Shown: piece after piece, positions 7,316 to 35,215 of the stretch
How positions within the stretch are numbered: position 1 is the first letter of the stretch
Layout: each line of letters begins with the position of its first letter
NCBI GenBank assembly: GCA_003647645.1
Contig: QMNG01000004.1
Coordinates: 1 to 56,795 of the forward strand
Direction of reading: 5' to 3'
DNA: 56,795 bases
DNA from: a candidate division Kazan bacterium
Lineage (GTDB): Bacteria > Patescibacteriota > Kazan-3B-28
Program-made: the position numbers and the translations under genes
Notes under the pieces: generated by a model
Told to the model about the DNA's origin: nothing
Database searches by the model: none
Seen by the model: only the letters and a program-made list of their open reading frames with translations

Positions 7316-8790
<1,475 letters not shown>

Positions 8791-9616: not shown

Positions 9617-9752
9617 ATTATATCAGGCAATCGCGTTGATAGAGAGTAAAATTCCTGTTAATCTACTGTTGTTGTATATTTAGACTAGAATCTACTTGAT
9701 AGTTAATTGTTAGTAGTTGGATATTGGAAATTAAATTGCGGAGCAATTTTGG

Positions 9753-10008
9753 GGGCATGTAGCTCAGTTGGTTAGAGCGCAGTCCTGACCAGCCGACGCA
9801 TAAATACATTTTGAAATTGTGGGCACATAGCTCAGTTGGTTAGAGCGCAGTCCTGATAAGACTGAGGTCCCTGGTTCGAGTCCAGGTGTGCCCACCACAA
9901 TTTCAAAATATGCTATGGCTGGCTAGGTAAGACTGCCTGTCCTCCGTAGCTCTATGAAATAGAGCGAAGGACGAAAGGTCCCTGGTTCGAATCCAGGCAT
10001 GCCCACCA
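9753..10008 (+). pseudogene. Interrupted tRNA-Ile(GAT): exon-like segments 9753-9788, 9928-9935 and 9976-10008
   Basis: Segments join to a 77-nt cloverleaf with perfect acceptor GGGCATG/CATGCCC; inserts 9789-9927 and 9936-9975. Called pseudogene for lack of expression evidence. Confidence 0.75.
9821..9897 (+). tRNA. tRNA-Ile(GAT), nested in the interrupted tRNA-Ile
   Basis: GGGCACATAGCTCAGTTGGTTAGAGCGCAGTCCTGATAAGACTGAGGTCCCTGGTTCGAGTCCAGGTGTGCCCACCA. Confidence 0.97.
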
Positions 10009-10149
10009 GTAGGTTTTGTTAATATAAAATTTGGCTCTATTTTATTTTGTGATATGATACTCTTTCGGGTGAGAAGCAATCTCCCCCCACATCAACGTTC
10101 CGCTGCATAGCAAAATCAAGCATGAGGCGGGTACACCCATCAAAAATTT

Positions 10150-34622: not shown

Positions 34623-34698
34623 GCCGAGATAGCTCAGTCGGCAGAGCGCACCCATGGTAAGGGTGAGGTCACGGGTTCGATTCCCGTTCTCGGCTCCA
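34623..34698 (+). tRNA. tRNA-Thr(GGT)
   Basis: GCCGAGATAGCTCAGTCGGCAGAGCGCACCCATGGTAAGGGTG...TCTCGGCTCCA. Confidence 0.97.
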
Positions 34699-34800
34699 GA
34701 ATTCACTCAATCGAACTATAGAGTCGAGTGAGTTCTGCCCTCCGAAGCGTTATCTGTATCACAAGAGGCGAATGTCCTATTTGTGACGGGATGAAGAGAT
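34697..34800 (+). repeat. tRNA-Thr trailer element, copy 1
   Basis: CAGAATTCACTC...GAGTGAGTTCTG then CCCTCCGAAG...TATCACAAGAGGC; homologous to 35108-35215. Confidence 0.8.
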
Positions 34801-35034: not shown

Positions 35035-35109
35035 GCCGAAGTAGCTCAATGGTAGAGCAACCGCTTTGTAAGCGGTAGGTTGGGGGTTCGAATCCTCTCT
35101 TCGGCTCCA
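35035..35109 (+). tRNA. tRNA-Thr(TGT)
   Basis: GCCGAAGTAGCTCAATGGTAGAGCAACCGCTTTGTAAGCGGT...CTTCGGCTCCA. Confidence 0.97.
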
Positions 35110-35215
35110 GAATTCGCTCAATTTTAATATAGCGTCAAGCGAATTCTGCCCTCCGAAGTGCTATCTATATCACAAGAGGCAAATGACTTATTTGTAATGA
35201 GATGAAGCAAAGGAT
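35108..35215 (+). repeat. tRNA-Thr trailer element, copy 2
   Basis: CAGAATTCGC...GCGAATTCTG then CCCTCCGAAG...TATCACAAGAGGC. Confidence 0.8.

Follow-up and report, generated by a model that had tools for sequence, protein, structure and literature searches.

A tRNA-Ile gene nested inside a tRNA-Ile gene of a Kazan bacterium: one case of a recurring CPR pattern, with serial gene replacement as its probable origin

Few genes are as conserved as those for tRNAs, and most tRNA genes of CPR genomes are single-copy. How, then, does a complete tRNA-Ile gene come to lie inside a broken tRNA-Ile gene, and which of the two is the working one? The question is raised by a locus in the 56,795-nt stretch of a candidate division Kazan genome (G000) that was analyzed here and is called the window.

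The outer gene, on the forward strand like all features described at this locus, consists of three pieces that join into 77 nt with the anticodon GAT. Its 5′ piece (9753-9788), 94% identical to the inner gene, carries nt 1 to 35, i.e., the 5′ acceptor strand, the D-arm, the 5′ side of the anticodon stem, and the loop bases CTGA. The middle piece TAAGACTG (9928-9935) supplies nt 36 to 38 and the 3′ side of the anticodon stem, and the 3′ piece (9976-10008) holds the variable loop, the T-arm, the 3′ acceptor strand, and CCA; both were assigned from the sequence and from their match to a relative, G005. Insert 1 (9789-9927, 139 nt), defined by sequence, MFE fold, and helix score, splits the anticodon loop between nt 35 and 36. 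Its outer arms, CCAGCC (9789-9794) and GGCTGG (9917-9922), pair in the MFE fold, and its inner arms, ATTTTGAAATTGT (9808-9820) and ACAATTTCAAAAT (9897-9909), form a perfect 13-bp stem. The helix ATTTTGAAATTG/CAATTTCAAAAT of this insert has a score of 26, reached by 0.3% of mispaired flanks. Within the palindrome lies an intact tRNA-Ile(GAT) with CCA (9821-9897), the last A of which is also the first base of the right inner arm; it is the sole call of ARAGORN and Rfam at the locus (73.6 bits). Insert 2 (9936-9975), recognized by its fold and by hairpin class counts, is an empty 40-nt hairpin, CCTGTCCTCCGTAGC...GCGAAGGACGAA, at the junction of the outer anticodon stem and the variable loop. The inner tRNA differs from its own outer tRNA at 5 nt, and their acceptor stems are two compensated pairs apart (outer GGGCATG/CATGCCC, inner GGGCACA/TGTGCCC), with the outer halves still matched. 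A sequence-only reading had drawn this anatomy; the coordinates and sequences of the three segments were all confirmed, as were the nested gene, the bounds and stems of insert 1, the position of insert 2, and the compensated acceptor pairs.

The MFE fold of 9753-10011 (259 nt) contains all four stems of the outer tRNA (acceptor, D, anticodon, and T), continues the anticodon arm through the insert 1 palindrome with the inner tRNA as its cap, and places a second hairpin between the outer anticodon stem and the variable loop. None of 200 shuffles folded as well (z = -6.4). The joined outer tRNA folds like the inner one (-31.3 vs -31.7 kcal/mol), and the hairpin claimed earlier for insert 2 is borne out by a fold of -14.8 kcal/mol (z = -4.2). 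The proposal of a tRNA scaffold displaying a tRNA thus describes the predicted RNA fold correctly; a display function is unlikely.

Is the locus peculiar to one genome? We scanned 85,462 species for two D-arms closer together than a tandem tRNA pair permits and added a sample of 384 genomes of the phylum, 11 of which fit this narrow pattern. The scan and the sample gave at least 117 two-D-arm loci with an intact inner tRNA. Among the matches listed, which set a lower bound, 29 of the 117 are truly nested, i.e., with a matching outer 3′ half downstream (a few duplicates included), at a false-positive rate of 2.9% with scrambled acceptors. The unique CPR nests among these listed matches number at least about 20 to 21 and come from Kerfeld-, Nomura-, Uhr-, Berkel-, Falkow-, Levy-, Peri-, Moran-, and Parcubacteria, WWE3, and Kazan. 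They follow a common plan: the inner tRNA is intact, palindromic arms flank it, and the outer halves belong to the same tRNA. The window locus is one case of this recurring tRNA-inside-tRNA pattern. The detection pattern needs two AGCTCAG-type D-arms and includes acceptor pairing as part of its filter; most nests are from metagenome assemblies, and some loci were classed by eye. Further nests, of Arg, Ala, Cys, Thr, Val, and Ile, were seen on inspection, most of them with decayed outer shells. Strong palindromic flanks accompany 13% of the examined CPR tRNAs, a sample enriched for nests, against 0.3% in the control. The few non-CPR nests among the matches listed are near the false-positive level, and outside CPR the two-D-arm pattern mostly reflects, among these matches, 5′-half duplications without an outer 3′ half. 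As separate observations, five Clostridia MAGs (L078, L150, L153, L172, and L179) have the 5′ half of tRNA-Phe duplicated just 5′ of the intact tRNA-Phe, L150 with a distant outer 3′ half in addition, and a Nanoarchaeota tRNA (L122) with a 5′-half duplicate and an intron-like insert also matched the pattern. No description of a tRNA nested in its own isotype was found in the open-licence literature on nested tRNA and on CPR tRNA or palindromes.

An assembly chimera of two tRNA-Ile loci might be suspected, as the window contig comes from a fragmented assembly of 138 contigs. However, unrelated assemblies show the same anatomy, among them the single-contig genomes G001 and G004, and we regard a chimera as extremely unlikely. 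The recurrence of the architecture in independent genomes argues against chance and leads us to reject a one-off misassembly, the doubt that had been attached to the sequence-only reading.

A search of relatives for uninterrupted or nested forms of this locus found both. G001, G002, and G004 have a plain tRNA-Ile here. In G005 (candidate division Kazan bacterium RBG_13_50_9), of the same order as the window genome but another family, one tRNA-Ile likewise lies inside another, and the insertion point, CTGA|TAA, is that of the window. This genome also holds a tRNA-Val(GAC) within a broken tRNA-Val, and both of its nests, like that of the window, have a second, tRNA-free hairpin elsewhere in the outer gene. 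When its three pieces are joined, the outer tRNA of the window matches the intact inner tRNA-Ile of G005 at all 77 positions; the inner tRNA of the window has A7 and GAGTCC in common with G002. A tRNA-Val(TAC) nest is common to the congeners G001 and G004, its left arm CCCCGCATAAGATTT being identical in the two; the two genomes have different hairpins in the D-loop, and the outer 3′ half is no longer present in G004. At the position of this nest the window genome has a plain gene, so an empty state exists. Of the 41 tRNAs of G001, those for Met, Val, Cys, Pro, and Ala show nests or relics of nests, and inspection of the tRNAs of G013 and G025 revealed no convincing nests. These three single-contig genomes, 95 to 100% complete, were not selected for nesting; the trait is thus patchy.

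The nests show several regularities. In 13 of the 26 CPR cases listed, the inner anticodon begins with the two letters that the outer tRNA has at nt 34-35, against a mean of 3.3 and a maximum of 9 in 5000 permutations. When the insert splits the anticodon loop, nt 35 is usually the exact end of the outer 5′ piece, whatever the anticodon: GA|T in the window, CG|T in L112, CA|T in L128, CA|C in L158, TA in L123, L134, and L173, GA in L102, and TG in L105. Other insertion sites are the D-loop (L081, L082, and L154) and nt 26. Because the search pattern favors inserts between the D-arm and the anticodon loop, this spectrum of sites is biased; the exact nucleotide is not. Palindrome ends of the CPR type are frequent in the arms: nests in the anticodon loop show CCCCGTTA..TAACGGGG flanked by TTCA/CAAG, and nests in the D-loop show CCCGCC..GGCGGG. 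Nesting can be repeated, as in the three tRNA-Ala(CGC) layers of L154 and the extra shells of L123, L071, and L039. Pure survivorship, in which cassettes land at random and only same-isotype insertions survive, is disfavored, since the anticodon match is exact even for tRNAs that wobble can render dispensable and since palindrome-flanked tRNAs are hardly seen outside same-isotype shells.

Which of the two genes works in the window? A putative sigma-70-type promoter, TTGATA-17-TAATCT, lies 5′ of the outer tRNA (9636-9664) and is kept at the syntenic tRNA-Ile locus of G001, G002, and G004. The outer gene therefore appears to sit at the native locus, with transcription probably passing through it to the inner gene. 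No intact tRNA-Ile(GAT) other than the inner gene was found in the 1.14-Mb assembly, which is 88% complete, so that its lack of a second tRNA-Ile, or of RtcB, is not final. Most likely, the inner tRNA is the one in use, and the outer copy is what is left of the native gene after its displacement, a relic that still follows a conserved promoter. In related nests, the 3′ anticodon stem of the outer tRNA is gone (L105, L143, and L083) or empty hairpins occupy the outer D-arm or T-arm (L123, G001, and G007); such decay, like the lost 3′ half in G004, is relic behavior. The sequence-only reading had named decay of the outer halves in relatives as evidence against itself. In the window genome the outer halves are undecayed, as had been claimed: the free decay of stems and invariant positions that marks a plain pseudogene is not seen in an outer tRNA identical throughout to a functional one. 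This leaves room for function and counts against a relic. The intact state fits a recent event, and continued function appears less likely.

That the outer tRNA is functional too would mean that both inserts are removed as bacterial tRNA introns of a new kind and that one transcript yields two tRNA-Ile. The precise joining of its pieces into the tRNA that functions in G005 speaks for this, as do its perfect acceptor and anticodon stems, the good folding of the whole locus, and several other nests whose outer acceptors are perfectly paired with compensated differences from the inner ones. However, acceptor pairing belonged to the detection filter and is therefore no independent evidence of selection; in many outer shells the 3′ anticodon stem is missing or several hairpins are present, and the outer Val shell of G001 and G004 decays while the inner gene is kept. 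Introns of the archaeal/eukaryotic type lie one nucleotide 3′ of the anticodon, carry a BHB motif, and depend on a splicing endonuclease and a ligase (RtcB). The site of insert 1 is 35^36, and RtcB (PF01139), present in 4 of 26 genomes, was not found in G000 (88% complete) or G005 (98% complete). Rfam intron families gave no match at the gathering threshold in the window and none up to E = 10 in 9700-10080, so a group I or II intron was rejected. A spliced outer tRNA was likewise rejected, given the missing RtcB in these two genomes and the decay of outer shells elsewhere; overall, we hold a functional outer tRNA to be very unlikely. The description of a doubly interrupted gene is therefore right as anatomy and unlikely as a statement about a functional gene.

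Several known kinds of interruption invite comparison. Disrupted tRNA genes of the intron-containing, split, and permuted kinds have been reviewed (PMC4390854), and a term search of the text of that review brought up no nested class. They share with our locus the interruption of the anticodon loop; here, in contrast, the site 35^36 is not canonical, the insert holds a whole tRNA, splicing machinery was not found, and outer shells decay. Group I introns occur in bacterial tRNA genes (PMC3984707). These mobile inserts share the anticodon loop as their site, whereas the insert in the window, 139 nt and mostly tRNA, has no detected catalytic core. Genomic islands integrate at tRNA genes, some with a crossover in the anticodon loop. 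As proposed for our case, a tRNA gene is the insertion site and the incoming DNA restores a working tRNA; however, the window insert is 139 nt without an integrase or direct att repeats, and the restoration would come from a whole nested gene instead of a 3′ half. Rickettsia palindromic elements, mitochondrial hairpin elements, and GC clusters are inserted in genes (e.g., PMC2800124). The empty hairpins of the outer shells resemble them, although those elements carry no complete copy of the gene that they interrupt.

We consider it probable that the tRNA gene at this locus has been replaced serially, by a process that recurs in CPR. A native tRNA-Ile, still behind its conserved promoter, would have taken a palindrome-flanked cassette with a complete tRNA-Ile(GAT) at nt 35/36. 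The inner gene would be transcribed from that promoter and presumably released by RNase P and 3′ processing; it would now serve as the working tRNA-Ile in place of the native gene, and the interrupted outer gene would be a recent relic whose RNA is probably not repaired. Insert 2, a dispersed hairpin element, may have entered the outer gene later or simultaneously. In CPR at large, palindrome-flanked tRNA cassettes would enter loops of a same-anticodon tRNA gene, sometimes repeatedly, giving double and triple nests with decaying outer shells. The candidate agents are a REPIN-like or other hairpin-mobilizing system, recombination with a relative's nest through the tRNA halves as homology arms, and local duplication by template switching.

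Local duplication, in which the polymerase, replicating across tRNA hairpins, switches template and places a copy of the tRNA and its flanks in the anticodon loop, would make the isotype match automatic and the palindromic arms either by-products or pre-existing flanking palindromes. It agrees with the exact anticodon match even where wobble can spare the tRNA (Val CAC, Thr CGT, and Ala CGC) and with the un-nested 5′-half duplications common in other phyla among the matches listed. In L123, L132, and L177 the sequence 5′ of the outer tRNA recurs 5′ of the inner one, which suggests local duplication over a foreign cassette at least there. In the window, however, the inner and outer tRNAs are 5 nt apart, whereas the outer one equals another species' gene, and their upstream flanks are not clearly similar; the arms, moreover, look like dispersed palindromes in G067 and others. 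Local duplication is a possible explanation, held tentatively. A nest taken up by the cell could also recombine with the recipient gene through the tRNA halves and import its cassette, the halves playing the part that exons play for a homing intron. Such recombination accounts for the anticodon match, the fixed position, and repeated nesting, and the outer tRNA of G000 equals the inner one of G005 while its inner tRNA carries A7 and GAGTCC as in G002; similar arms also occur in tRNA-Val nests across CPR groups. Yet homology arms of 35 to 40 nt are short, the CCCGCC/CCCCGT arms track the site and not the isotype, and the first nest of each isotype still needs another origin, so this route seems unlikely to us.

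A third kind of agent is a mobilizer of tRNA cassettes resembling the Y1 system of REPINs. REP/REPIN palindromes are moved by Y1 (RAYT) transposases and have TIR-flanked TIRYT relatives (PMC3733652, PMC8049555). The palindromes of some CPR genomes are likewise short and dispersed, with conserved arms and variable loops: palindromes with conserved arms number 12 to 20 in G067, G060, and G059 against 0 to 2 in controls, the CCCCGTTA..TAACGGGG type alone 20 in G067 against 1 in the reversed control. The loose hairpin class CGTAGC..GCGAAG, to which insert 2 belongs, occurs six times in G000 against none in the reversed control; it is this looser class alone that is dispersed, the stricter form GTAGC..GCGAAGNANGAC having no match in nine Kazan genomes. 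Y1 transposase genes are present in G000 (two) and in 13 other genomes, one of them, in G060, flanked by such palindromes. They are absent, however, from the nested genomes G001, G004, and G005, which weakens this reading, and the arms CCAGCC/GGCTGG of the window are not dispersed in G000; the idea that the insert 1 arms are a dispersed repeat of that genome was not supported. To our knowledge, no REPIN carries a tRNA gene or targets tRNA loops. On balance, a REPIN-like mobilizer appears rather unlikely, and what probability remains falls to some agent other than these three. Apart from this, the G060 gene (IS200/RAYT-like; L215/L225, contig C20) lies among three copies of the palindrome CCCGTCAAGGAGGCTCCTTGACGGG, a candidate pair of mobilizer and element.

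Serial replacement, if it recurs as proposed, would be a new route of essential-gene turnover, as the tRNA gene is broken and replaced by a same-anticodon nested copy in one event. Either a mobile cassette or a replication error at tRNA hairpins would be new as a mechanism. A more far-reaching version, that CPR harbor a dedicated mobile system of palindrome-flanked tRNA genes homing to a position fixed by structure, after nt 35 of the same-anticodon chromosomal gene, self-replacing and a natural 'cleave-and-rescue' system of essential RNA genes, is conceivable and, in our judgment, doubtful. Nesting would offer an explanation for the fast compensated change of acceptor stems in these lineages, and the outer shells could be read as datable fossils of earlier tRNA alleles. 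Standard annotation tools report the inner gene only.

Three further observations concern other loci. In the window, two tRNA-Thr genes (GGT and TGT; 34640-34796 and 35051-35207) with palindromic downstream tails form a 157-nt repeat with 77% identity. The window also holds a 16S rRNA gene (7316-8787) with a flanking tRNA-Ala on the opposite strand and no 23S gene within the window, and the rRNA genes may be unlinked. Finally, the tRNA-Gly/tRNA-Cys spacer of G000 (L058, contig C3) and of G004 (L325) has kept in both genomes a sequence, GGATGACGAGACC..hairpin..TCGAGTCCATCC, that resembles the relic of a hairpin-interrupted tRNA T-arm.
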